Source of the DNA: Acidiferrobacteraceae bacterium
GTDB taxonomy: Bacteria > Pseudomonadota > Gammaproteobacteria > Arenicellales > UBA868
NCBI GenBank assembly: GCA_002731295.1
Contig: PCBE01000085.1
Location: 16,360 to 27,419 of the forward strand
DNA length: 11,060 nucleotides
Direction: 5' to 3'
Positions 1-11,060 of the stretch are shown piece by piece. Each line of letters starts with the position of its first letter. Position 1 is the first letter of the stretch. The notes under the pieces are model-generated. The model ran no database searches and was not told the DNA's origin. It saw only the letters and a program-made list of their open reading frames with translations. The position numbers and the translations under genes were made by a program.

Positions 1-558
1 ATTGATGTCCGCCATGTTCCAGCACTCGCCGGAACGGTAATCTGCATGACTTAAATAGACGATTGCGGTATCAGTATTGAAAGAATCGATCAGTTCGTCT
101 CTTGATGCGCACACCTTAACTTCGGGTGGATCGGGATGATTGCGATTAAGTCCTTGGGCCACGTACAGATCGGTAGGGAAATTGCCGTCTTCGGTCAATA
201 TCGTGCTGCCTGATTTGCGAGATTGCCAGGCATAGGTCAGAATTTTGTAGAGGTTTACCGTGGTGTTATCACAGACAACGACGTTGCCCTGACCGGCACC
301 CATCAAGTGGGCGATGGCATCACCGATCTGGCGCGGTCTGTCCAGCCACTCGGTGTGGTTCCACCCCTGGCGACGCAGCTCCACCCATTCGTCGGTGCAG
401 AAGGATGCCAACCGATCCGGCACCGCTGCCGGCATGGCACCCATCGAATTCGCATCCAGAAAAATTGTGTGTTTTTGCGGTGGCTGAAATCTTGCTTTAA
501 ACCCTGACAGCGGATCTTGGGCGTCCAGCTGCTGGCAGTGAGTGCGGTCAATGGCCAT
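1..558 (-). CDS. kynU: Kynureninase, N-terminal 186 residues (3' end beyond the left edge)
   Basis: Kynureninase is a cytosolic PLP enzyme that hydrolyses L-kynurenine to anthranilate and L-alanine. Reading the minus strand from the ATG at 558 gives one open frame of 186 codons to base 1 with no stop, so the gene is partial. Visible family motifs are FLDANSMGAMP (residues 33-43, matching the usual FLDGNSLG), GWNHTEWL (65-72), VVVCDNTTVNLYK (93-105, PLP-site Thr region), NFPTDLYVAQGL (126-137, the PLP-stacking Phe and Asp segment) and LSHADYRSGE (169-178). The catalytic PLP-lysine lies further on and cannot be seen. Family length is about 400-420 residues, so roughly half is present. The start is fixed by an in-frame TAG at 562-564, immediately upstream. 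No strong Shine-Dalgarno is seen. The gene is divergent from the hyuA-like gene. An unrelated PLP aminotransferase-fold hydrolase is unlikely given the motif set. Confidence 0.93.
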   Translation of the reverse strand, partial: MAIDRTHCQQLDAQDPLSGFKARFQPPQKHTIFLDANSMGAMPAAVPDRLASFCTDEWVELRRQGWNHTEWLDRPRQIGDAIAHLMGAGQGNVVVCDNTTVNLYKILTYAWQSRKSGSTILTEDGNFPTDLYVAQGLNRNHPDPPEVKVCASRDELIDSFNTDTAIVYLSHADYRSGECWNMADIN

Positions 559-597
559 GGTCTAGTTGTCCAGTTGCGGTTAGTTTTGTCCCTATTC

Positions 598-628
598 TTG
601 CAATTATGCAATATAATCTGCAATATTG
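598..628. repeat. TGCAAT repeat cluster, candidate operator
   Basis: TGCAAT occurs at 599-604, 607-612 and 619-624. The last two copies extend to the 8-mer TGCAATAT (607-614 and 619-626), spaced 12 bp start to start. The first two form an inverted repeat, TTGCA-ATTA-TGCAA (598-611). CAATATTG at 621-628 is itself palindromic. The cluster overlaps the TATAAT box at 612-617, a position where a bound repressor would block transcription. The repeats are seen directly; the operator role is inferred, and no regulator gene is in the window to pair with it. Confidence 0.4.
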
Positions 629-657
629 TAAGTAATTTTCACCAATGTACGGTGCAC

Positions 658-663
658 AGGAGA
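658..663 (+). promoter_or_regulatory. Ribosome binding site of the hyuA-like gene
   Basis: AGGAGA lies 7 nt before ATG 671 but only 4 nt before the in-frame GTG at 668. The spacing therefore favours ATG 671 as the start. Confidence 0.7.
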
Positions 664-670
664 TTGGGTG

Positions 671-2773
671 ATGGGTGAGGGGGCCTGCCGCTTGGCCGTA
701 GACATCGGCGGTACATTCACGGACGTTGTGCTTTGGTCGGCGGAAGGTCAGACCACCGCCAAAGTATTGACGACAGCCCAAGCGCCTGAACAAGGGGTGC
801 TGACCGCGGTTCACCAGGTGCTCAATAAGACCGGACGGTTGCTTTCGGATGTGAGTCTAATGATTCATGGCACCACGTTGGCGACCAATGCTCTCATTGA
901 GCGCAAAGGGGCCATTACCGCATTTCTAACCAGCGATGGATTTCGGGACATTCTCGAGATGGGTTATGAAAAGCGATTCGCTCACTACGATTTGAATGCT
1001 GCCCGGGCAGCGCCGCTGGTGCCTCGCTCTTTACGATATACGGTACCTGAGCGGATGACCGCAGATGGACGTGTACAAGTGCCGCTTGATCAGGGCGCGG
1101 TTCGCGAGGTCGCCAAGTCATTAGAGAGCGCCGGCGTGGAAGCGATTGCTGTCGGCTTCATTCATGCGTATGCGTATGGACGGCACGAGCAGATGGCGGC
1201 AGAAATACTCCAGGCTGAACTGCCCGGGGTGCGCATTTGTCTTTCAAGCGACGTTTGCCCAGAGATGCGCGAATACGAACGCTTCTCTACGACTTGTGCA
1301 AATGCCTATGTACAGCCACTGATGGCCGGTTATCTTGATCGATTGAGTAATCTTCTGATTCACGAGGGACTGCACAGTCCGCTCTACCTGATGATGTCGG
1401 GTGGCGGACTGACAACGCTGGATCAGGCGGTTCGTTATCCAGTGCGCCTTATTGAATCCGGGCCCGCCGGTGGGGCACTCATGTCTGCACGACTTGCTTC
1501 AGCCCGAAAACTCGACAATGTACTGTCGTTCGATATGGGGGGCACCACTGCAAAGATCAGTCTGATTCAGAACGGCCAACCTGACCGCAGTGCAACGTTT
1601 GAAGTGGCCCGTGAGTACCGCGATATGAAAGGCAGTGGGTTGCCGGTCCGAATTCCCGTTATCGACATGGTCGAGATCGGTGCAGGCGGTGGGTCCATCG
1701 CTCGAGTTGATACGCTGGGGCGCATCGGTGTGGGTCCTAACAGCGCCGGGTCGAAGCCTGGACCCGTGTCTTACGGGATGGGTGGCGAAGAACCCACGGT
1801 GACGGACGCAGATCTGGTTTTGGGCCGACTCGACAGCCGCCGCTTTGCAGGTGGCGGGCTGCAGCTCGATGAACAGGCTGCTCGCACCGCATTGGCAGTG
1901 GCTATTGGTGAGCCGCTGGCTCTTGATGAGTACTGGCCGGCAGCAGGTGTGATTGAGATGGTGGAAGAAAATATGGCGAATGCGGCTCGCGTTCATGCCG
2001 TCGAGCGGGGCAAAGAATCCGGCGAGTACACGATGATTGCGTTTGGCGGAGCCGCACCCCTTCACGCGGCCCGACTCGCTGAAAAACTGGGAATGGATCG
2101 CGTAATCGTACCGCCGGGTGCCGGAGTGGGTTCGGCTATTGGCTTTCTACAAGCGCCGGTGTCTTACCAGGTTGTCCGAAGTCTGAGAATCTTGATCGGA
2201 ACCGAGGATCTCTCACCGCTGATCGAACTGCTCGACCAGATGCTTGATGAAGCCACCCAGATCGTTGTTGCCGGCAGCAGCACCGAATCTCTCAAACACG
2301 CCCGAGAGGTCGCCCTGCGTTATCTGGGGCAGGGGCACGAACTGTCTGTCAATCTCCCCGACGGTCCAGTCACCGCCCAGATGCTGGAACTTGTCCGGCT
2401 CGACTTTGAGTCGTTATATCGACAGGTTTATGGTCTGACGATGCCCGACATTGCAGTCGAGTGTGTCTCCTGGTCCGTCACAGTCATGACACCTGCTGCT
2501 GCGGTGACGTTTGTGCATGAACCTGCCCGTAAGCAGTTACTCAAACCGTGCGAAACCCGGTCAACCTACGACCCGGCAGACGGTGTGATGGCAGATGCTG
2601 GACTGTACTGGCGGGCCAAGTTGAATCCAGGTGACTGGCTGGTTGGACCTGCACTGGTTCAGGAAGATGAAACGGTCACATTTGTACCGTCTGGATACAC
2701 CTGCAGCGTAGACGAAGGGCTTGCACTTGTCGTTGATCGAGAAAGCACCGATGCCATGGGGGCTATGTCATGA
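671..2773 (+). CDS. Hydantoinase/oxoprolinase family protein, HyuA-type (ATP-binding) subunit
   Basis: This is a 700-residue protein of the HyuA / N-methylhydantoinase A / acetone carboxylase beta family, an ASKHA-fold ATPase partner of a HyuB subunit. Family members use ATP to hydrolyse cyclic amides (5-oxoproline, hydantoins, oxindole-acetate) or to phosphorylate ketones for carboxylation. Seen in order: DIGGTFTD phosphate-binding motif (residues 11-18), HGTTLATNALIE (66-77), ESGPAGGA (262-269), DMGGTTAK (288-295), a Gly-rich IPVIDMVEIGAGGGSIA stretch (328-344), VGPNSAGSKPGP (354-365), FGGAAPLHA (458-466) and PPGAGVGSAIG (481-491). The C-terminal ~150 residues match the usual Hydantoinase_A C-terminal region less sharply. 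Length is normal for a stand-alone HyuA. It shares a 4-nt ATGA overlap with the next gene, so translation is coupled and the two products probably form a complex. No acetone carboxylase gamma-type gene follows. The substrate cannot be read from sequence. Confidence 0.93.
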   Translation: MGEGACRLAVDIGGTFTDVVLWSAEGQTTAKVLTTAQAPEQGVLTAVHQVLNKTGRLLSDVSLMIHGTTLATNALIERKGAITAFLTSDGFRDILEMGYEKRFAHYDLNAARAAPLVPRSLRYTVPERMTADGRVQVPLDQGAVREVAKSLESAGVEAIAVGFIHAYAYGRHEQMAAEILQAELPGVRICLSSDVCPEMREYERFSTTCANAYVQPLMAGYLDRLSNLLIHEGLHSPLYLMMSGGGLTTLDQAVRYPVRLIESGPAGGALMSARLASARKLDNVLSFDMGGTTAKISLIQNGQPDRSATFEVAREYRDMKGSGLPVRIPVIDMVEIGAGGGSIARVDTLGRIGVGPNSAGSKPGPVSYGMGGEEPTVTDADLVLGRLDSRRFAGGGLQLDEQAARTALAVAIGEPLALDEYWPAAGVIEMVEENMANAARVHAVERGKESGEYTMIAFGGAAPLHAARLAEKLGMDRVIVPPGAGVGSAIGFLQAPVSYQVVRSLRILIGTEDLSPLIELLDQMLDEATQIVVAGSSTESLKHAREVALRYLGQGHELSVNLPDGPVTAQMLELVRLDFESLYRQVYGLTMPDIAVECVSWSVTVMTPAAAVTFVHEPARKQLLKPCETRSTYDPADGVMADAGLYWRAKLNPGDWLVGPALVQEDETVTFVPSGYTCSVDEGLALVVDRESTDAMGAMS

Positions 2774-4431
2774 AAGCAACCTTGGGGCATCAGTCTCGTC
2801 AGTCAATCGATAAACAGGTGATGTGGACCCGTCTGATCTCGGTGGTTGAGGAACAGGCCCAGGCGCTGCTGCGTACGGCATTCGGGTCAGTGGTGCGGGA
2901 AGCGGGTGATCTGTCTGCTGGTGTGTACGACCTTAAAGGTCAGATGCTGGCTCAGGCCGTCACGGGTACGCCCGGACACGTGAACACGATGGCGATGGCC
3001 GTCAGCCATTTTCTCGAGCGTTTTCCGGTTGAAACGATGAAGCCGGGAGATGTTTTTGTAACCAACGATCCCTGGATGGGAACCGGGCACTTGTTTGACT
3101 ACGTGACGCTGACACCGGCTTTTCGCGATGAGGATCCCGTTGCTTTTTTTGCCTCGACCTGCCATGTCACCGATGTTGGTGGGCGTGGGTTTACGGCCGA
3201 TGCCGGTTCAATGTTCGAGGAAGGGGTGCTTATACCCCATATGCGGATTCGATCAGCAGGTACATTGAATGATGACCTGCTCGGTATTATTCAAGCCAAC
3301 AGTCGCAACCCGGTCGAGGTCATGGGTGATATTCGTTCGCTGTTGTCCTGCAACGATGCGGGTGTCGCGCGTTTCGCAGATATGCTTGACGAGTTCGGAC
3401 TCGATTCGCTGGATGATCTTTCTAGACACATCATTGAATCGTCCGTCACTGCCATGCGCCAGGCGATCCACTCCGTGCCAGATGGCGTTTATAGCGCGCA
3501 GATGACAATCGACGGCTATGAAAAGCCGATCGCACTCGAGGCTCGTTTGACAGTAGATAAGGAAAGAATTCATCTGGACTATAGCGGGTCATCCTCGGCC
3601 TCACGCTTTGGCATCAATTCGCCCAAGTGTTATACGGACGCTTATTCTGTGTTTGGCCTTAAGTGTGTTATTGCACCGGATGTCCCTAACAATGCCGGTT
3701 CACTGGGGTGCTTTGAAGTAGAGGCCGAGCCAGGCTCCTGCGTGGCGCCTGAGCGCCCTGCACCCGTGACGGCACGGCATGTGATCGGGCAGATGTTGCC
3801 GGACCTTGTTTTTGGGTGCCTGGCACAGGCGCTGCCTGACCGAGTACCGGCCGAGAGTGCGGGTTCAATCTGGGTGCTGGCGATGGCGAGCATGGAGGAT
3901 GCCACTGGTGGGGCGCGCTTCAACGTGATGAACGTGGGACTGGGCGGCATTGGCGCAGGACCCGGGTACGATGGCATGAGCACAACGGCGTTTCCGTCCG
4001 GTGTGGGTACGATTCCGATCGAAGTGACTGAAACAGAGTCTCCTCTGATCTTCCACCGTAAGGAGCTTCTGCCGGATTCAGGCGGTGCCGGTGCGCAGCG
4101 TGGTGGTCTATCTCAGGTTATAGAGGTGGGGCATGTTTTTTCTGAACCGTTTCTGGTGTCGGCGGCGACCTGGGACCGTCTGAACTATCCGGCCCGCGGA
4201 CGCATGGGTGGGGATGACGGCAGGGCTGGCGCGGCATATCTGGGTTCCGGTGAGCGGCTGATTGGTAAAAAGACGCACCGAATCCCCGCCGACCAAACGC
4301 TGGTCATCGAAACGCCCGGGGGCGGGGGTTTTGGCGATCCTGAAACACGCTCTGATGAGCAGATCGAAGCGGATACCGAGGCTGGTTACGTGAGTGAGGC
4401 TGGTGCGATCACGGATTACCACAAACACTAG
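2770..4431 (+). CDS. Hydantoinase/oxoprolinase family protein, HyuB-type subunit
   Basis: This is a 553-residue HyuB / N-methylhydantoinase B / acetone carboxylase alpha family protein, expected to be the catalytic partner of the HyuA-like protein. Visible family motifs are GTPGHVNTM (residues 66-74), PGDVFVTNDPWMGTGHLFD (92-110, the conserved NDP...H..D region), STCHVTDVGG (129-138), SRNPVEVMGDI (178-188), VTETESP with a downstream DSGGAGAQRGG segment in the last third, and the C-terminal PGGGGFGDP signature (516-524). Length is typical of HyuB; acetone carboxylase alpha is longer. The ATG at 2770 overlaps the upstream stop by 4 nt. Hydantoinase, 5-oxoprolinase, oxindole-acetate hydrolase and acetophenone-carboxylase-type activities are all possible. 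The family is certain; the reaction is not. Confidence 0.93.
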   Translation: MKATLGHQSRQSIDKQVMWTRLISVVEEQAQALLRTAFGSVVREAGDLSAGVYDLKGQMLAQAVTGTPGHVNTMAMAVSHFLERFPVETMKPGDVFVTNDPWMGTGHLFDYVTLTPAFRDEDPVAFFASTCHVTDVGGRGFTADAGSMFEEGVLIPHMRIRSAGTLNDDLLGIIQANSRNPVEVMGDIRSLLSCNDAGVARFADMLDEFGLDSLDDLSRHIIESSVTAMRQAIHSVPDGVYSAQMTIDGYEKPIALEARLTVDKERIHLDYSGSSSASRFGINSPKCYTDAYSVFGLKCVIAPDVPNNAGSLGCFEVEAEPGSCVAPERPAPVTARHVIGQMLPDLVFGCLAQALPDRVPAESAGSIWVLAMASMEDATGGARFNVMNVGLGGIGAGPGYDGMSTTAFPSGVGTIPIEVTETESPLIFHRKELLPDSGGAGAQRGGLSQVIEVGHVFSEPFLVSAATWDRLNYPARGRMGGDDGRAGAAYLGSGERLIGKKTHRIPADQTLVIETPGGGGFGDPETRSDEQIEADTEAGYVSEAGAITDYHKH

Positions 4432-4510
4432 TGTATGCCGTCTCGACCAACTGAATCGCATTTTGGGCAGCTGAACCGGCTGTTCAAGAGTAATACAGGC
4501 GGCTAATCGT

Positions 4511-6136
4511 ATGCATACCGTCAGCCAGCTGATTGATGCCCGTGCTGATATAGGCCCCCAGAAAATCGCTGTTATCGATAGAGGCGGGGTCTGGACTTAC
4601 GCCGAACTTGCTGCAGAATCGCGGCGTCTTGCTGGTGGCTTACTCAAGCTGGGTATCGGCTTGGGTGATCGGGTCGGTTTCTGGCTACCGAATATTGCCC
4701 AGTACCTTACACTTCATATCGCCTGTGCCCGGATTGGGGCAATCACTGTATCAATCAATACCCGTTATCGCTCGAGTGAGGTCGGCGACATTGTGGGGCG
4801 ATCGGGTTGCCGGGCACTCGTGCTGTGGCCGTCATTCAAGGACATTGCATTCCTCGATATCTTGGCAGAGGTCGATCGCACAGATCTGGAACAGCTTGAA
4901 TTTCTCATCACCTACAGCGAAGGCGAGCAGGAAATTCAGTTACCGGGACGACTATTAAGCCAGTGCTCCGTGCCCTATACCGACCTTGCACGGTCGGAGA
5001 TGTTTACCAGTGACGGAGCCACTGCGCAAAACGGTGTGGTTGTTTTTACCACCTCGGGGACCACGGCTGCGCCTAAGTTCGTTCTGCACAGTCAGGCCAG
5101 TATCAGCCACCACGCGCATGATGTGGCTTCGTTTTTCGACTGGAACGAGCCGGACGCTGTACTGCTTCAAGTATTGCCGCTGTGTGGTACGTTCGGACAT
5201 GCCGGCGCGATGGCAGCTTTATCAGCTGGCTGCCCGATGGTGTTGATGCCTGCGTTTTCTGACCATGAAGCTGTTCAGCTTATGCAGTCACATCGGGTTA
5301 CGCACTGTAACGGCTCGGATGAAATGTTCGCTAGGATGCTTGCAGCTGCAGACGATCCCTATCCATTTCCACTGTTTCGGTCCGGCGGTTATGCTGCTTT
5401 TAATCCTTTGTATCAGGATATTGTTGCCAGGGCTCATGATCGTGGAATGAACCTGGTTGGTCTGTATGGCATGAGTGAGATCCAGGCACTTTATGCCCGT
5501 CAGGACCCTTTAGCATCTGTCGAGCGGCGTGGACGATGCGGTGGCTATCCGGCGTCGACAGATTCCCAGGTACGTGTACGCGATCCTGAGAGCAAAGAGA
5601 TACTGCCCCATGGGCAGGTGGGTGAGCTCGAGGCGACGGGCCCCAGTCGCATGATCGGTTATTTGGACGACGCGACCGCCACTGAATCAGTTTTCACCAG
5701 CGATGGATTTGTACGTAGCGGGGATCTGGGCTATACGGAAAGCGATGGTGGTTTTGTATTTCTGGGCCGGATGGGTGACGCTATCCGACTGGGCGGGTTT
5801 CTGGTCAATCCGGTTGAGATTGAGCAGCATATTGAGCAGCATCCCGCGGTTGAAAGAGTGCAGGTGGTGGCGGTGGATACCCAGGCCGGTACAAGAGCCT
5901 ACGCATTCGTAATCCCTGCGGAAAATGCCCCCCTACATGAAGATGCTTTGCTGGCCCACTGTGCCAGCGGTATGGCGAGTTTTAAGGTTCCCATCGGAGT
6001 CCAGTTGCTGAATCAATTTCCCGTGACCGAGAGTGCCAATGGCATCAAAATTCAGAAAAGCCGTCTGCGTGAAATGGCAGGCGCTCGGCTGAGTCGGGAT
6101 AGACAGCCCCCCGACATCGATTCAATAGACCCTTGA
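4511..6136 (+). CDS. AMP-forming acyl-CoA synthetase (class I adenylate-forming enzyme)
   Basis: This 541-residue enzyme activates a carboxylic acid with ATP to an acyl-AMP and then transfers it to CoA. Seen are the P-loop-like TTSGTTAAPK (residues 180-189), the adenine-site GLYGMSE (317-323), RSGDLGY with the ribose-binding Asp405, GRMGDAIRLGG (419-429, hinge region) and a C-terminal ANGIKIQKSRLRE whose Lys513 is the likely catalytic lysine. Length is normal. All key residues are present, so it should be active, but the acid substrate cannot be predicted. The ATG at 4511 is preceded by a modest AGGCGG (4497-4502). It lies 79 nt after the hyuB-like gene with no convincing terminator between, so it is probably co-transcribed. 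An aromatic or aryl-alkanoic acid substrate would fit the neighbourhood, but that is inference. Confidence 0.92.
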   Translation: MHTVSQLIDARADIGPQKIAVIDRGGVWTYAELAAESRRLAGGLLKLGIGLGDRVGFWLPNIAQYLTLHIACARIGAITVSINTRYRSSEVGDIVGRSGCRALVLWPSFKDIAFLDILAEVDRTDLEQLEFLITYSEGEQEIQLPGRLLSQCSVPYTDLARSEMFTSDGATAQNGVVVFTTSGTTAAPKFVLHSQASISHHAHDVASFFDWNEPDAVLLQVLPLCGTFGHAGAMAALSAGCPMVLMPAFSDHEAVQLMQSHRVTHCNGSDEMFARMLAAADDPYPFPLFRSGGYAAFNPLYQDIVARAHDRGMNLVGLYGMSEIQALYARQDPLASVERRGRCGGYPASTDSQVRVRDPESKEILPHGQVGELEATGPSRMIGYLDDATATESVFTSDGFVRSGDLGYTESDGGFVFLGRMGDAIRLGGFLVNPVEIEQHIEQHPAVERVQVVAVDTQAGTRAYAFVIPAENAPLHEDALLAHCASGMASFKVPIGVQLLNQFPVTESANGIKIQKSRLREMAGARLSRDRQPPDIDSIDP

Positions 6137-6183
6137 TCGGAGACCGGCTCGCTAGCAAAGTTTCCCGAACGTGCTTGCCTGAT

Positions 6184-6213
6184 TTGTTAAAGTACTACTG
6201 AGGCAATTTAAAT
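6184..6213 (+). promoter_or_regulatory. Possible promoter before the TfdA-like dioxygenase gene
   Basis: In the 107-nt gap after the synthetase gene, TTGTTA (6184-6189) and TTTAAA/TTAAAT (6207-6213) are spaced 17-18 bp apart, resembling a sigma-70 promoter. The match is partial and by eye only. The gene could equally be read from upstream. Confidence 0.25.
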
Positions 6214-6231
6214 TCACCGAATCTTGGTATC

Positions 6232-6237
6232 GAGAGG
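6232..6237 (+). promoter_or_regulatory. Ribosome binding site of the TfdA-like gene
   Basis: GAGAGG ends 6 nt before ATG 6244. An in-frame TTG at 6238 abuts the site and would have no spacing, so ATG 6244 is preferred. Confidence 0.65.
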
Positions 6238-6243
6238 TTGGCT

Positions 6244-7110
6244 ATGACGATAGAGCTGCGGCCATTGCACGACGATTTTGGAATCGAGATTCTGAACGTT
6301 GATATCAGTGCTGGCCTAGATGATGCGGAATTCGCGGAAATCGAACGAGCTGTTGAGGACTACTCGGTAGTACTCATTAAGCATCAGAACCTCGATGACG
6401 ATCTGCAACTGGCATTCGGCAATCGGCTCGGTGAGCTCGAGTTTGACCATGTGACTTATGGTCGTGACCGTCGTATCAACTACGTCTATCGGATCGGAAA
6501 TATTGATTGGGACGGCAACCATATGCCCGCCAGTCACGAACGCGTTGTGTTTTCGACCGGGAATCAGATGTGGCACAGCGACTCGTCATTCAGACCCGCG
6601 CCCGCGAAGTTTTCGATTTCCTATGCCTATGAGGTTACGCCCCAAGGCGGTGAGCTTGAATTCGTCAGCGCTAGAGCAGCTTATGCTCGTTTGCCCGAGT
6701 CAATACGGTCCACCATTGATGATCTGGTTGTGACGCACGACTATGTATTCTCCCGGAGTAAGGTCAGCCCGGATGCAGTGACGCCGTCACATGCTGAGTC
6801 GTTGCCACCGGTTCCCCAGCGTTTGGTTCGTACCAATCCGGTCAACGGAAAGAAGAATTACTATGTCGGTTCTCATGCGCGTTCAGTTGAAGGCTGGTCG
6901 GATAGCGATGCCCGTGTGCTACTCGACGATTTGCTTGATCGCGCTATCCAGCCCGAGTGTATTTACAGCCACCGCTGGGAGACCCAAGATCTTCTGATCT
7001 GGGACAATCGATGCGTTCTGCATCATGGTCGTCCTTTCGATGCCGATCGTTATCGGCGTCGGATGCATCAGATACGCGTCACTTGTGGTTGTTCTTCAAT
7101 GGACGAATAG
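6244..7110 (+). CDS. TfdA/TauD-family Fe(II)/2-oxoglutarate-dependent dioxygenase
   Basis: This 288-residue enzyme belongs to the family that couples 2-oxoglutarate decarboxylation to hydroxylation of a substrate. Hydroxylation often breaks a C-O, C-S or C-N bond, as in TfdA (2,4-D) and TauD (taurine). The iron triad is visible: H111 and D113 in MWHSDSSFRPAPAKFS, and H260 in WDNRCVLHHGRPFD. The WHSDSSFRP stretch, the EFVSARAAYARLP region and the PQRLVRTNP segment resemble TfdA more than TauD, and the length is close to TfdA's. R272 (12 residues after H260) sits where the 2-oxoglutarate-binding Arg is expected. The position 16 after the His, a second active-site Arg in TfdA, is Gln276. It follows the synthetase gene in the same orientation and is convergent with ridA. 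Substrate unknown. Confidence 0.9.
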   Translation: MTIELRPLHDDFGIEILNVDISAGLDDAEFAEIERAVEDYSVVLIKHQNLDDDLQLAFGNRLGELEFDHVTYGRDRRINYVYRIGNIDWDGNHMPASHERVVFSTGNQMWHSDSSFRPAPAKFSISYAYEVTPQGGELEFVSARAAYARLPESIRSTIDDLVVTHDYVFSRSKVSPDAVTPSHAESLPPVPQRLVRTNPVNGKKNYYVGSHARSVEGWSDSDARVLLDDLLDRAIQPECIYSHRWETQDLLIWDNRCVLHHGRPFDADRYRRRMHQIRVTCGCSSMDE

Positions 7111-7123
7111 CCGTTTCGACGGC
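7110..7123 (+). terminator. Possible weak terminator hairpin after the dioxygenase gene
   Basis: GCCGT-TTCG-ACGGC is a perfect 5-bp stem with a UUCG tetraloop that begins on the last base of the stop codon. It lies between two convergent genes, where a bidirectional terminator is expected. No U-run follows on either strand, so intrinsic termination is doubtful. Confidence 0.3.
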
Positions 7124-7155
7124 AATACGTCTGGTTGTTAAACCGAGCGAGTCTG

Positions 7156-7545
7156 TTAGCTTTTTGCAGCCCAAGCTTCGATTTCAACAAGGATGTCAGG
7201 TGATGCCAGTCCGTCGACAATCACCAGTGTCGATGTAAAGATCGTTTCATCGCCGATTACCCGAGCCCTTGCCAAACGGTAGTCCTCAATAAAGCGTGAG
7301 TCGGTTAAGTACACCGTGGTTTTGACCAGATCTGATTTGCGCATGCCCTGATCGCGTAGACAACTCAAAATATTGCGCAGAGTCTGTTCCGTCTGTTTGC
7401 GAATGCCGTTTGCGAGGTTGCCTTTTTTGTCTATACCGACCTGGCCGGAAAGGACCAGCCATTGTGCATTGGCGGGCACCAGGGTCGTATGACAGTATTT
7501 ACCCAGGGGTTTGTGAACCATCGCTGGATTTGAAGAAATATTCAT
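7156..7545 (-). CDS. RidA/YjgF-family protein lacking the canonical deaminase arginine
   Basis: This is a 129-residue Rid-family protein (YjgF/YER057c/UK114 fold, usually a cytosolic trimer). Archetypal RidA hydrolyses reactive enamine/imine intermediates made by PLP enzymes. Seen are WLVLSGQVGID (residues 29-39), QTEQTLRNILSCL (51-63), DLVKTTVYLTD (72-82), FIEDYRLAR (85-93) and the C-terminal VEIEAWA (120-126). The segment that normally reads PAR-S with the catalytic Arg (Arg105 in E. coli RidA) reads FTSTL here (103-107), placing Ser or Thr at the Arg position. This argues for one of the Arg-less Rid subfamilies. The start at 7545 is preferred over the ATG at 7557 because a GGAGG (complement of 7551-7555) lies 5 nt before 7545, while 7557 has no such site. 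The gene is convergent with the dioxygenase and divergent from the isomerase-like gene. Confidence 0.9.
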   Translation of the reverse strand: MNISSNPAMVHKPLGKYCHTTLVPANAQWLVLSGQVGIDKKGNLANGIRKQTEQTLRNILSCLRDQGMRKSDLVKTTVYLTDSRFIEDYRLARARVIGDETIFTSTLVIVDGLASPDILVEIEAWAAKS

Positions 7546-7715
7546 TGCTGCCTCCATTGTTGTTTAGTCTTAGTCACCGAAGTTACCGCGTAAGATGATC
7601 TGTAAGTGTAAACGCGGACCACGTTTTGAAGGTAACAACATCACCCAACCCTGCGTAGAATGGGAGGTCTGGGCATTAATGACCGCCTGCTGTTGAGACT
7701 GGTCGGGATTATAAA
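7546..7715. promoter_or_regulatory. Divergent intergenic region between the rid and isomerase-like genes
   Basis: This 170-bp spacer should carry promoters for both directions. Two inverted-repeat pairs are seen. CCGCGT (7586-7591) pairs with ACGCGG (7612-7617), and GTTACC (7582-7587) pairs with GGTAAC (7631-7636). TAGAAT at 7656-7661 could be a plus-strand -10 box, but I see no good -35. Only GGGA (7706-7709) resembles a Shine-Dalgarno before ATG 7716. A regulator-binding role for the repeats is a guess. Confidence 0.3.
7551..7555 (-). promoter_or_regulatory. Ribosome binding site of ridA-like gene
   Basis: The complement reads GGAGG, 5 nt before ATG 7545. It overlaps the alternative upstream ATG (7557), which argues against that start. 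Confidence 0.75.
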
Positions 7716-8480
7716 ATGGTCGATTCGAAGGTTCGGAATGACGACGCGTTGGGTTGGCGTTTGAAGTTGGGTGTAATTGTGCCTGCAACCAACACCATTG
7801 TTGAGCCCGAGTTTCACAGCATGACCCCTGCTGGAGTAACTTGCCACACCGGGCGTTTTCCGCTCAGGGATGTTCGCATCACCAGCGATGACGATTTCGA
7901 ACGTCTGGTCGCCGATATTCATGCCAACCTGGATCGGGCAGTCGACGACCTGATGTCCGTGGCTCCCGATCACATTATCGTGGGGGTTTCTGCTGAATCT
8001 TTCTGGGATGGTGCGGACGGTGCAGAGATAATCAGAAACCGATTAGCGGAAAAGACGGGTGTCTCGATCACGCTGGGATCTGATGCGGCACGAGTAGCGC
8101 TGGAGGCAGTGGCCGCACAGCGTATAGGCGTATTAACACCTTACTGGCCAGTTGCAGATGAGCGTGTGCGGCAGTATTTCAACCAATGCGGTTTTACTGC
8201 AGTCAGAGTAACGGGCCTTAAGGCAACCAGCCCACTCAATATTGCCGAACAGAGTCGGGCCACATTACGCCAGGCTATCCTCGATCTTGACGGCGACGAT
8301 ATCGATACGATCGTCCAGGTCGGGACTAATCTTGCGCTTGCTGCTCTGGCCGATGAGCTTGAGCAGGAACTGGGTAAACCGGTGATCGCCATCAACGTAG
8401 CCCTGTACTGGCACGCACTGAGGCAAAACGGCATCAATGAACCTATTCCAGGATTCGGCCGGTTACTGAAAAATTTGTAG
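7716..8480 (+). CDS. Maleate isomerase / arylmalonate decarboxylase-like protein (Asp/Glu racemase superfamily), catalytic cysteines absent
   Basis: This 254-residue protein belongs to the maleate cis-trans isomerase / arylmalonate decarboxylase branch of the Asp/Glu racemase superfamily. The N-terminal LGVIVPATNTIVEPEF matches the ligand-binding GxxxPxxNTxxExE start of the family. The C-terminal ELGKPVIAINVALYWHALRQ matches the GKPVxxxNxAxxWxxLR block. Canonical members use one or two cysteines. Here the first Cys region reads VGVSAESFWDG (residues 89-99) and the second reads VQVGTN (200-205), with Gly203 where Cys stands in the usual CTN/CTS. Neither catalytic Cys is therefore present, and C-based racemase or isomerase chemistry is unlikely. 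The full frame is intact and the core folds look conserved, so this reads as a divergent subfamily rather than a decayed gene. It is first in a tight operon, with the next gene starting 4 nt after its stop. Function unknown. Confidence 0.85.
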   Translation: MVDSKVRNDDALGWRLKLGVIVPATNTIVEPEFHSMTPAGVTCHTGRFPLRDVRITSDDDFERLVADIHANLDRAVDDLMSVAPDHIIVGVSAESFWDGADGAEIIRNRLAEKTGVSITLGSDAARVALEAVAAQRIGVLTPYWPVADERVRQYFNQCGFTAVRVTGLKATSPLNIAEQSRATLRQAILDLDGDDIDTIVQVGTNLALAALADELEQELGKPVIAINVALYWHALRQNGINEPIPGFGRLLKNL

Positions 8481-8484
8481 GCGA

Positions 8485-9633
8485 TTGGGAGCACTTCAGT
8501 TCAACACAGCTTTACCACCATTGAAAACCAAAATTGATCAGAGCACTGTAGCTGGAACCCCGCCGGATAAAGATTTCAGCCGGCGTCGAATTGCAGCCGA
8601 TAAGCTGAGGCTTCTGGGTGTTCGCTTGCTGTCAGCAGCAGGCATGTCACACGATGACGCAGCCATGGTTTCCGAACACGTGGTGGGCAACAGCCTGATG
8701 GGTGTGGATTCCCACGGTGTGGTGCGATTTTCTCAATACATGTCGCTTATCGAATCGGGCGCAATCGATCCCCTCGGTACACCGCTTTTAGTCGTTGATG
8801 ATCCGGCAATGACCCGGATTGATGCTGGTGGTGGACACGGTGTTCCCGCTATGGTGCAACTTGCGGAATGTACAGCTCATAAAGCGAGTACTGCCGGGAT
8901 GGCGACCGGTGCTCTGGTGAATTGTGGTCACACGGGACGGATTGGTGCCTACGCTGAAATGATTGCCCGTCAGGGCTGTTTTGCCGTGATTATTGGCGGT
9001 GGCGGACATACCCGGGGCAATCCAAAAGTAGCACCCTACGGTGGTCGGGAAGGCATTATGGGGACCAATCCCTACACATTGGCTCTCCCGGGTGGTCCGA
9101 CAGGTGTGGTGGTCGTAGATTTTGCGACGTCCACCAGCGCTCAAGGCAAGTTGCTCGCGGCCTCTAAAACAGGAGAGCCTCTGCCCCCGGGGACCATTAT
9201 GGACCGCGACGGGCGGCCGAGTATTGATGCCCGGGACTACTATGCGGGGGGTGTACTGCTGCCGGCAGCCGGACCCAAAGGCTACGGACTGGGGCTTATT
9301 GGCGAACTGCTCGCTCATGGGGTCCTGGGTCAGGCAAGGGCACTGAACTGGCTGGTGCTGGCGGTTGATCTCGACCTGCTGAGCGATGATGACTATGGCA
9401 GCAGAATTGATGATTATCTGGAATGGGTGAAAGGGCGGGCGCCGGCAGAAGGATTTGACGAGGTGATGATTCCGGGCGAACCTGAGCAGCGTTGTCGACA
9501 ATTGCGGGAGCAGTTGGGGATTCCTGTTGCCGATGAAATATGGGCGGAGATCGTCGACTGGGCCGGTCGGATGGGTATCGTGCTGCCTGATATCGATGCG
9601 AATGCTGATTCTCACGAGGCACAGGTGCGCTGA
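8485..9633 (+). CDS. Ldh_2-family malate/lactate dehydrogenase-like NAD(P)H oxidoreductase
   Basis: This is a 382-residue member of the type-2 malate/L-lactate dehydrogenase family, which also includes ureidoglycolate dehydrogenase, sulfolactate dehydrogenase and Delta1-piperideine-2-carboxylate reductase. Such enzymes interconvert 2-hydroxy (or cyclic imino) acids and 2-oxo acids with a nicotinamide cofactor. Visible are GVDSHGVVRFSQYM (residues 73-86), NCGHTGRIGAYAE (146-158, with the conserved His), GTNPYTLALP (193-202), VVDFATSTSAQGK (210-222) and PKGYGLGL (264-271). The start is uncertain. An in-frame stop at 8467-8469 precedes it, and the only plausible starts are TTG 8485 and TTG 8521, because the first in-frame ATG (Met54) lies inside the conserved domain. 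TTG 8485, with a weak TAGG just before it, is chosen. About 30 N-terminal residues lie outside the family core. The stop overlaps the IDO start by 1 nt (TGATG), so the two are translationally coupled. Confidence 0.9.
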   Translation: MGALQFNTALPPLKTKIDQSTVAGTPPDKDFSRRRIAADKLRLLGVRLLSAAGMSHDDAAMVSEHVVGNSLMGVDSHGVVRFSQYMSLIESGAIDPLGTPLLVVDDPAMTRIDAGGGHGVPAMVQLAECTAHKASTAGMATGALVNCGHTGRIGAYAEMIARQGCFAVIIGGGGHTRGNPKVAPYGGREGIMGTNPYTLALPGGPTGVVVVDFATSTSAQGKLLAASKTGEPLPPGTIMDRDGRPSIDARDYYAGGVLLPAAGPKGYGLGLIGELLAHGVLGQARALNWLVLAVDLDLLSDDDYGSRIDDYLEWVKGRAPAEGFDEVMIPGEPEQRCRQLREQLGIPVADEIWAEIVDWAGRMGIVLPDIDANADSHEAQVR

Positions 9634-10778
9634 TGGCTTCGTGTTGGCAGGTGACCGGGAAGCAGGGATTTCTGATTGCTCCTGAACCAGTAACCGATCC
9701 GTTACCGTTTCTTTCGAATACCATGCGCAGTGCGGTTGGCGAGATTATGGATGTAGCCAGTTGTCTTCCACAGTTGGTTGCGGAGGGCCGCTGTCGTGAA
9801 GCATGTCTGGCGTTGCCTATACCGAATTTTTCAGGCAGCGATGTGATTCTCGATGAACGCGCTGCGGAGCGCCTGCACCAGGCTTATGCCTTTTTGAGCA
9901 ATGGCTATTTGTGGCAGCCTGGCGAGGAACCGACTCGGCAACTGCCGCGTACCCTCGCTATTCCTTTCGTCCAGCTTTCAGCACGGGTCAAACGGCCGCC
10001 GACACTGAGTTATACCAACACACAACTGGCCAATTGGCGGCGGCTAGACCCTGCCGGTGAAATTGCAGTTGAAAACATTAAAGCGGTGCAGATGTTTCAG
10101 CCTCTTCCTGATGAGGAATGGTTTTGGGTGCTGCACATTGTGATCGAGGCTCGTGGTGCTCCGGCAGTGGTCGCAGGCACAAGACTGGTGCAGGCAGCAA
10201 AACTTAACGATATAGATCAGATCGAAAGGCAGCTCGAGATTATCCGCTCCGGACTTGAGACGATCATAGAACTTGCAGGGCGTATGGAAGAGGGTTGCCG
10301 GCCGGAGGTGTATTACGAGACCTTACGTCCATTTCTGTTCGCACACCCCGATGGTGTGGTATTCGATGGTGTGCAGGCATTCGGTGGTAAACCACAGACA
10401 TTTCTGGGGCAAACTGGAGCACAAAGTGCTTTGATTCCAGCTATCTGTGCATCACTGGGATTGCGTCATGCGCGCAGCGAACTGACAACCTATCTGGAGA
10501 CTGTACGGGCCTACATGCCTGAGCCTCACCGGCGGTTTGTCGCCGGGCTGGACGGCCAGGTCGTGCGAGATTGTGTCAGCAGTACTGTGAGTCAGAACTC
10601 GGTACGGACGCTCTACAATAGCTGCATTGAGAAAGTAGTTGAGTTTCGGCGTCTTCATCTTGGCCTGGCTGCAAACTATATTGCCTCGCGTATGGATAAT
10701 CCCCGCGGCACCGGGGGTACCGACTTCATGCGCTGGCTGAAGCATATGACCCGGGAAACAACCGAACAGATGCTCTAG
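9633..10778 (+). CDS. Indoleamine 2,3-dioxygenase (bacterial IDO)
   Basis: This 381-residue heme protein is predicted to insert O2 across the C2-C3 bond of an indole ring, converting tryptophan or a related indole to an N-formylkynurenine-type product in the cytosol. Seen are PLPDEEWFWVLHIVIEA (residues 157-173), YYETLRPFL (227-235, with Arg232 at the human IDO1 Arg231 position), GQTGAQSALIPA (259-270), YLETVRAYMPEPHRRFV (287-303), EFRRLHLGLAANYI (337-350, His342 being the proximal heme ligand), and TGGTDFMRWLK (360-370), the distinctive IDO C-terminal loop. His168 aligns by eye with human IDO1 Ser167, a distal-pocket position where tryptophan 2,3-dioxygenase carries His. Length is similar to eukaryotic IDO (about 400). 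The ATG overlaps the preceding TGA. The nearby kynU supplies a later step of the same pathway. The family call is firm; a substrate other than tryptophan is possible. Confidence 0.93.
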   Translation: MASCWQVTGKQGFLIAPEPVTDPLPFLSNTMRSAVGEIMDVASCLPQLVAEGRCREACLALPIPNFSGSDVILDERAAERLHQAYAFLSNGYLWQPGEEPTRQLPRTLAIPFVQLSARVKRPPTLSYTNTQLANWRRLDPAGEIAVENIKAVQMFQPLPDEEWFWVLHIVIEARGAPAVVAGTRLVQAAKLNDIDQIERQLEIIRSGLETIIELAGRMEEGCRPEVYYETLRPFLFAHPDGVVFDGVQAFGGKPQTFLGQTGAQSALIPAICASLGLRHARSELTTYLETVRAYMPEPHRRFVAGLDGQVVRDCVSSTVSQNSVRTLYNSCIEKVVEFRRLHLGLAANYIASRMDNPRGTGGTDFMRWLKHMTRETTEQML

Positions 10779-10809
10779 TTGTGCGGACCGGATTCGCCTG
10801 GAGCAATTT

Positions 10810-10816
10810 AAGGAGA
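10810..10816 (+). promoter_or_regulatory. Strong ribosome binding site of the SDR gene
   Basis: AAGGAGA lies 5 nt before ATG 10822 and fixes that start. It is the best Shine-Dalgarno match in the downstream operon. Confidence 0.75.
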
Positions 10817-10821
10817 AGTGT

Positions 10822-11060
10822 ATGCAGGATTTGTTTTCAATTAAAGGCAAGACGGCGCTCGTGACCGGCGGGTCGCGCGGAATCGGGGAGATGATTGCTG
10901 GCGGGTTTCTGGCAAGTGGTGCCAGGGTCTATATCAGTTCGCGCAAAGTGGAGGCTTGTGATGCTGCCGCCGAGCGGCTGATGAAGACCTTTGGCGGAAA
11001 GTGCATTTCTCTGCCCGGCAATGTTGCCGAACTCGATGGCATCAGTGCCCTGGTTGAAAC
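10822..11060 (+). CDS. Short-chain dehydrogenase/reductase, N-terminal part (3' end beyond the right edge)
   Basis: The first 79 codons of a classical SDR are visible. They include the Rossmann dinucleotide motif TGGSRGIG (residues 15-22) after the typical SIKGKTALV first strand. VYISSRK follows (36-42), and its Arg41 at the end of the second strand, with Arg19 in the glycine motif, suggests NADP(H) preference. The acidic NV-type element appears as PGNVAEL near residues 65-71. The catalytic Ser-Tyr-Lys lies outside the window. The gene follows IDO after 43 nt in the same orientation with no clear terminator, so it may be the fourth gene of the operon. The start resembles SDRs of the RhlG/3-oxoacyl reductase type, but substrate cannot be assigned from this part. 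Confidence 0.88.
   Translation, partial: MQDLFSIKGKTALVTGGSRGIGEMIAGGFLASGARVYISSRKVEACDAAAERLMKTFGGKCISLPGNVAELDGISALVE

Follow-up and report, generated by a model that had tools for sequence, protein, structure and literature searches.

A gene island in an Acidiferrobacteraceae bacterium (GenBank assembly GCA_002731295.1, a 2.5-Mb draft genome, here G000), an uncultured and probably marine gammaproteobacterium that is likely related to Arenicellales, joins a kynureninase-like gene, kynU1, to hyuA1 and hyuB1, which encode a hydantoinase/oxoprolinase/lactamase-type enzyme. The window, i.e. the whole stretch of 11,060 nucleotides that was analysed (contig PCBE01000085.1, positions 16,360 to 27,419; G000:C95:16360-27419), holds the start of kynU1, the hyuAB1 pair and, farther along, a gene of the indoleamine dioxygenase family (IDO1). 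kynU1 and the HyuAB1 arm have stayed together in two genera, and IDO1 is an accessory part of the island that has been lost in one of them. Our preferred reading, which is tentative and to which we give a probability of about 0.4, is that the island carries out a co-regulated catabolism of cyclic amides and amino acids, with IDO1 as an optional feeder for indolic substrates.

Conservation of the island

Open reading frames were identified with Pfam and NCBIfam profile scans, which recovered every gene named in a preliminary description of the window made from its letters. Inside the window, kynU1 (1..558, minus strand) is represented by its N-terminal 186 amino acids; the rest extends upstream to C95:15679, for 412 amino acids in total. 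A divergent gap of 109 bp (559..667) separates it from hyuA1 (668..2773, plus strand), encoding the ATP-binding subunit, and hyuB1 (2770..4431, plus strand), encoding the metal-site subunit and overlapping hyuA1 by 4 bp. There follow genes for an AMP-forming acyl-CoA synthetase (ACS), a TauD/TfdA dioxygenase, a Rid-family protein, an Amdase-like protein, an Ldh_2 dehydrogenase, IDO1 and an SDR. Three genomes have both kynU1 and hyuAB1 assembled, namely G000, G003 of the same genus and G007 of another genus, the latter two also being drafts, and in each of them the two lie side by side and point away from each other. The preliminary description had named free separation of the kynU, hyuAB and IDO blocks as one observation that would speak against it: kynU1 and hyuAB1 stay together in three of three genomes, and IDO1 does come apart, being lost in G007.

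The grouping proposed there goes beyond chance: G003 (L023/L024) repeats the gene order, and so does G007 (L026/L027) except for IDO1. From the carboxyl transferase to hyuA2 (both outside the window, see below), G003 has the same order at 84-96% identity, with no panE match seen. G007 shows 56-88% identity, only the polyketide-cyclase-like gene being below 65%; its LLM gene is present at 73% (tblastn), and a nucleotide-cyclase-type gene, a CoA transferase and an enoyl-CoA hydratase are inserted. Leaving IDO1 aside, 20 genes are common to G000, G003 and G007 (tblastn or orthologue matches). A fourth genome, G002, has the stretch from hyuB1 to the SDR on a 9-kb contig. Between G000 and G003, dN/dS is 0.05-0.21 in 15 of 15 genes (Nei-Gojobori script), including 0.17 for IDO1, which indicates purifying selection.

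The kynU1-hyuA1 gap contains a candidate operator, TTGCAAnnATGnAATAnnnnnTGCA (TTGCAATTATGCAATATAATCTGCA), at 598..622 (plus strand), conserved in G000, G003 and G007; the corresponding gap of G002 is not assembled. With at most two mismatches, the pattern TTGCAANNATGNAATANNNNNTGCA occurs at five places in four genomes. The three without mismatch are the kynU1-hyuA1 gaps themselves, each genome having no other, and the remaining two are look-alikes with two mismatches in G000 and G002. A gene for an XRE-cupin regulator lies 9 bp downstream of kynU1, and its product might act at this site between the kynU1 and hyuA1 arms.

Among 33 genomes of the family, orthologues of hyuA1 (at least 67%) occur in four (G000, G003, G007 and G010) and those of kynU1 (at least 78%) in three, the same three with hyuA1 adjoining; other kynU matches there reach at most 41%. 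The hyuA of G010, a draft genome of another genus, is 100% identical to residues 26-701 of hyuA1 (G010:C96:3239-5266), which may be due to mis-binning of the contig or to gene transfer in very recent times. Of the 33 genomes, 7 gave an Amdase match at E 1e-30 and 25 an Ldh_2 match at E 1e-60, four of each being at least 74%. In G001, which belongs to the genus of G000, the searches with these cut-offs gave no orthologue of IDO1, hyuA1, kynU1, Amdase or Ldh_2. Wider searches, own genome included, gave 5 of 369 genomes of the class for ACS at E 1e-120 (the others at most 48%), 4 of 369 for Amdase at E 1e-40 (five places in the other three), and for kynU1, again at E 1e-120, 3 of the 109 genomes searched in the order and, in a phylum sample of 398 genomes, only its own.

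We compared 27 other neighbourhoods with 14 island proteins by tblastn: 9 from the class searches, 4 IDO loci from order and class, 7 on plasmids (from 154, 2627 and 10 records with a match, 122 kynU records standing outside the comparison), 6 family loci and that of genome NORP220. None of the 27 had a hyuA or hyuB match, and 3 had a kynU match, always beside an IDO. Besides the queried gene, they held only distant LLM, ACS or Amdase relatives, Rid and TfdA-type genes in L085, and kynU beside IDO; the full gene set was found in none of those checked outside the genera of G000 and G007. L085 (G014 C23, sister genus) has Rid (69%), TauD-type (28%) and Amdase (64%) relatives within about 6 kb (4459-10573) and no IDO, hyuAB or kynU matches.

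IDO1 and its loss in G007

IDO1 (9633..10778, plus strand) matches PF01231 with an E-value of 1.1e-69 and 235.7 bits against a gathering cut-off of 26, and overlaps the Ldh_2 gene by 1 bp. Between Ldh_2 and the SDR of G007, we find only a C-terminal part corresponding to IDO residues 315-375 (34 of 61 identical; L026 13774-13956). This remnant of about 60 codons comes after a shortened Ldh_2 and is in a different frame from it. No ATG, GTG or TTG occurs from the preceding stop codon to the start of the match, and the GTGGT loop of the remnant reads GAGGA. The rest of the G007 island is open and conserved around it. As IDO1 is broken and everything else kept, the main target of the island is probably not simply an indole compound.

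The preliminary description had proposed a single pathway for an indole- or kynurenine-derived compound; in such a pathway IDO1 would open the indole ring, and HyuAB1 would open a lactam formed from the product. IDO1 and kynU1 share one island in both G000 and G003, and IDO1 is under purifying selection; both points are consistent with this, and so is the abundance of the closest database relatives of IDO1 (88-95%), which represent clusters of 484 (at 92%), 132 and 23 member sequences. Against it stand the G007 remnant beside open hyuAB1, kynU1 and other genes, as well as the lack of a recognised formamidase, and of a recognised mutase or acyl-CoA dehydrogenase of the indoleacetate pathway, among the island genes scanned. 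The claim also loses ground with two loci outside the island, and we consider this single indole pathway unlikely.

The first of these loci is a canonical cluster of IDO2, kynU2 and a hydrolase, present in G000 (C21), G001 (C29) and G007 (C22). The three hydrolases are 52-90% alike, and that of G000, on which the Pfam scan was made, is an alpha/beta hydrolase. IDO1 and kynU1 are thus second copies, and the idea that they are the only kynurenine enzymes of the genome was rejected. An Lrp-type regulator-like open reading frame (by eye) lies downstream of the alpha/beta hydrolase-kynU2-IDO2 cluster at L030 1708-5060. In a tree of 43 IDO rows, with several long branches flagged, IDO1 falls in a clade of 22 rows (support 100/100), well apart from IDO2. 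The second locus is in NORP220, of another lineage, and holds the one IDO1-type gene (51%) that a scan of genome contigs gave outside the genus. Its neighbours encode a CoA transferase and a protein of the glyoxalase family. Its 6-kb contig shows no kynU or hyuAB match but is too short to exclude them farther off. NORP220 and G002 were the two loci found when genome contigs were scanned with the IDO alignment; any IDO at E 1e-3 was found in 11 of 145 genomes, own included.

IDO1 keeps H342 and R232, which we take to be the proximal heme histidine and the substrate arginine, as well as the loop GTGGT at 359-363. H168 occupies what is presumably the place of S167 in human IDO; a histidine is found there in all 20 rows of the IDO1-type alignment, and the two IDO2 rows have one Thr and one undetermined letter. 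IDO1 might act mainly as a monooxygenase forming a 2-oxindole, a lactam that HyuAB1, an enzyme of the lactamase kind, would hydrolyse much as IaaCE hydrolyses oxindole-acetate. MarE, a heme oxygenase of the same superfamily as IDO1, forms a 2-oxindole, and IDO is said to do so with peroxide (PMC11904535, PMC12921851, both in excerpt). Nevertheless, IDO1 has the dioxygenase-type GTGGT in place of the SLGGR of MarE, and loop swaps in TDO and MarE tie the GTGGS loop to dioxygenation, with ascorbate named as the main determinant (PMC12312684, partial text). From its loop, dioxygenation is the reaction expected of IDO1. Since hyuAB1 is also kept in G007 without IDO1, we regard this oxindole route as quite improbable. 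A slightly less probable variant starts from an indolic acid without an alpha-amino group, such as indole-3-propionate, from which wild-type TDO is implied to yield some oxindole (PMC12312684, same partial text). IDO1 would form the 2-oxindole aerobically, HyuAB1 would open it with ATP, and KynU1, ACS and the remaining enzymes would finish the breakdown; HyuAB1 in G007 would then have to obtain its lactam from another source.

Predicted enzymes and proposed pathway

The kynU1 part in the window matches TIGR01814 (E-value 1.6e-25) and has no Pfam match. The full-length orthologue of G003 (L023) scores 236.0 bits, just under the equivalog cut-off of 246.4, and kynU2 scores 308.9. In an alignment that includes kynU1, kynU2 and two haloarchaeal kynU, the kynureninase residues of 1QZ9 (F127, D130, D199, H202, Y224, K225, W254, T280 and R373), which comprise the pyridoxal-phosphate lysine and substrate-contact residues, are kept in 6 of 6 rows. 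kynU1 reads DANSMG and YKYLS in both genera, and the other four rows read DGNSLG and YKYLN. Together with the score just under the cut-off, these motifs hint at an altered substrate. The best named relative of kynU1 among the best 120 hits listed is from an Arenicellales bacterium (80%), and a kynU1-like cluster at 87% comprises 341 member sequences.

The ATP-site aspartates of CapA, D11 and D295, both have an aligned aspartate in HyuA1, and the metal tetrad of CapB (D41, H99, D102 and H124) is identical in the aligned HyuB1 and in HyuB2, the subunit of a second pair beyond the window. The two-subunit architecture is likewise that of the caprolactamase CapAB of Pseudomonas jessenii, in which mutation of the metal tetrad abolished activity (PMC8453981, in excerpt). 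Unlike these residues, the scores of HyuAB1 set it apart from caprolactamase, being far below the NCBIfam equivalog cut-offs (481.9 and 188.7 vs 1000). A third hyuAB pair, about 35-37% identical to hyuAB2, occurs on the same G007 contig (L028, C42, 4501-8260), adjoined by open reading frames that by eye resemble FAD oxidoreductases.

The ACS (4511..6136, plus strand), an AMP-binding ligase, has PRK06164 as its nearest model (602 bits vs a cut-off of 677). It is followed by the TauD/TfdA dioxygenase (6238..7110, plus strand), whose best solved relative is 2,4-D dioxygenase (5bke), and by the Rid-family gene (7156..7557, minus strand), identified by its profile match. The Amdase-like gene (7716..8480, plus strand), the Ldh_2 gene (8485..9633, plus strand; profile match) and IDO1 form an apparent single transcription unit with gaps of 4 and -1 bp, after which the 5' part of the SDR gene (10822..11060, plus strand) runs off the contig. 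The kynureninase and IDO genes said earlier to bracket the set are both present. However, the window holds only part of kynU1, the bracket does not include the SDR, and Rid is on the opposite strand. The second divergent gap, between Rid and Amdase, aligns poorly to G007. A promoter scan found 2 against a mean of 7.3 in shuffles, and an Rfam scan gave no match at gathering scores.

Arylmalonate decarboxylase and maleate isomerase carry catalytic cysteine(s) in two motifs. The Amdase-like (or maleate-isomerase-like) protein, of the Asp/Glu-racemase fold, has no cysteine in either, Val91 and Gly203 standing at these places and its only cysteines being at 43 and 158. The first-motif cysteine of maleate isomerase is absent from all 10 aligned rows, i.e. 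this protein and nine relatives at 38-95%, and two rows (L069 and L050) have a cysteine directly before GTNL in the second motif. The annotated neighbours of some relatives are FAD-dependent oxidoreductases or proteins of the isochorismatase family. The missing cysteine and these neighbours suggest that the group may have its own chemistry.

The window is the last 11 kb of contig C95 (27,419 bases), and its last 2711 bases (8350-11060) match the start of the reverse-complemented contig C89 without gaps at 99.5% (13 mismatches), probably because strain variation split the assembly. C89 thus carries the island onward. A true duplication of IDO on C89 was rejected, as the contigs overlap end to end and G003 has one contiguous copy. 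On C89 the SDR is complete (266 amino acids) and is followed on the opposite strand by genes for DppA (M55), an LLM flavoprotein, HyuB2, HyuA2, a PanE-like reductase and then a class V aminotransferase. DppA, LLM and hyuAB2, like several upstream C95 genes, were profile-scanned through their orthologues in G003. On the other side of the window, C95 carries on the strand of kynU1 genes for the XRE-cupin regulator, a polyketide-cyclase-like protein (a weak match, under its gathering score), a presumed carboxymuconolactone-decarboxylase type (labelled by eye, with no Pfam or NCBIfam match), an SDR and an aldo-keto reductase. Beyond these are a PhyH dioxygenase and the carboxyl transferase, and still farther away genes for a CoA ligase, a hydratase, an LLM protein, a Rieske oxygenase and a TRAP transporter; another two genes of this side were identified by eye. 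The whole island consists of the kynU1 arm, the middle from hyuAB1 to the SDR, and DppA, LLM and the second hyuAB beyond.

Kynureninases release alanine and Rid proteins act on imines; from such family knowledge we assign a probable reaction class to each island enzyme. We propose a route from a cyclic amide through a 2-amino-4-oxo acid to alanine and a CoA-activated acid, which would use every constant part of the island. HyuAB1, with the second HyuAB, would open a lactam, hydantoin or imide with ATP, and the product would be trimmed and oxidised by TfdA, Rid, the Amdase-like protein, Ldh_2 and the SDR. From the resulting 2-amino-4-oxo acid, KynU1 would release L-alanine and leave a carboxylic acid, which ACS, with the SDR and, in G007, the enoyl-CoA hydratase and CoA transferase, would move into CoA-thioester metabolism. 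IDO1 might serve as an optional entry, supplying KynU1 with a kynurenine-type acid made from an indolic substrate of the tryptophan type.

Several observations weigh against this cyclic-amide reading. The kynU1-hyuAB1 link is known from only three genomes, each of them a draft, and the IDO remnant from a single draft contig. G007 also retains IDO2, and this enzyme might stand in for IDO1. The three gaps in which the operator pattern was found had served to derive it, so their recovery is circular, although the lack of other exact places is not. Rid is encoded on the opposite strand, and the second-HyuAB segment is oriented opposite to the first. Finally, parts of the island appear to be used elsewhere: a sister genus has Amdase and Ldh_2 relatives (63-66%) in other neighbourhoods, and most of the best 120 database hits listed for kynU1 are proteins of its type at 51-72%, some of them labelled Alphaproteobacteria, Burkholderiales or Geminicoccaceae, so that this type extends beyond the island.

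The occurrence of Amdase and Ldh_2 relatives in other contexts also fits two unrelated functions that merely adjoin, IDO1 and kynU1 forming a second tryptophan-to-anthranilate route with the C21 formamidase, and HyuAB1, ACS, TfdA and others serving another substrate. The tryptophan- and kynurenine-enzyme residues of IDO1 and kynU1 and the tolerated loss of IDO1 without loss of the rest agree with such a split. However, kynU1 adjoins hyuAB1 in both genera, even without IDO1, with a common conserved site; IDO1 sits in the apparent Amdase-Ldh_2 unit and not beside kynU1; and canonical IDO2 and kynU2 are already in the genome. We therefore find two independent functions doubtful, and retain the cyclic-amide route as our preferred reading.

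Relation to known systems

Like the island, the canonical clusters of G000 C21 and of the haloarchaeal plasmids NZ_CP099998 and NZ_CP085306 combine an IDO and a kynureninase in one locus. Unlike it, they carry an alpha/beta hydrolase, likely a formamidase, an enzyme that the scans of island genes did not recognise. Neither plasmid locus has a hyuAB match, and the IDO1 of the island belongs to a clade separate from their IDO. The anaerobic iaa pathway of Aromatoleum shares with the island a HyuAB-type enzyme, IaaCE being named as such, and a CoA ligase, as well as an indolic substrate, which is supposed here (PMC8360864, PMC8453981, both in excerpt). The island differs in having an O2-dependent IDO, and the B12 mutase IaaGH and the dehydrogenase IaaF are not among its profile-scanned neighbours, a few L004 genes being named by eye and no dedicated mutase search of the genome having been made. 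The iad auxin operon of Variovorax degrades an indole compound aerobically from one operon, as proposed here for the indolic entry, but uses a two-subunit Rieske dioxygenase (IadD/E) instead of IDO, and the available part of its description does not mention a hydantoinase (PMC10374108). Another HyuAB, of unclear role, lies beside a 2-aminophenol pathway (PMC10470539, in excerpt).

The earlier statement that no described pathway has this set of genes holds among the matches listed in open-access PubMed Central, at the level of titles and abstract openings, and the pairing of a kynureninase-type enzyme with ATP-dependent ring opening was not found among them either. The natural loss of IDO1 in one genus offers a clean way to tell core from accessory steps of the island. 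Moreover, public sequence contains many close relatives of IDO1 and kynU1, so the compound that the island handles may be a common nitrogen compound.

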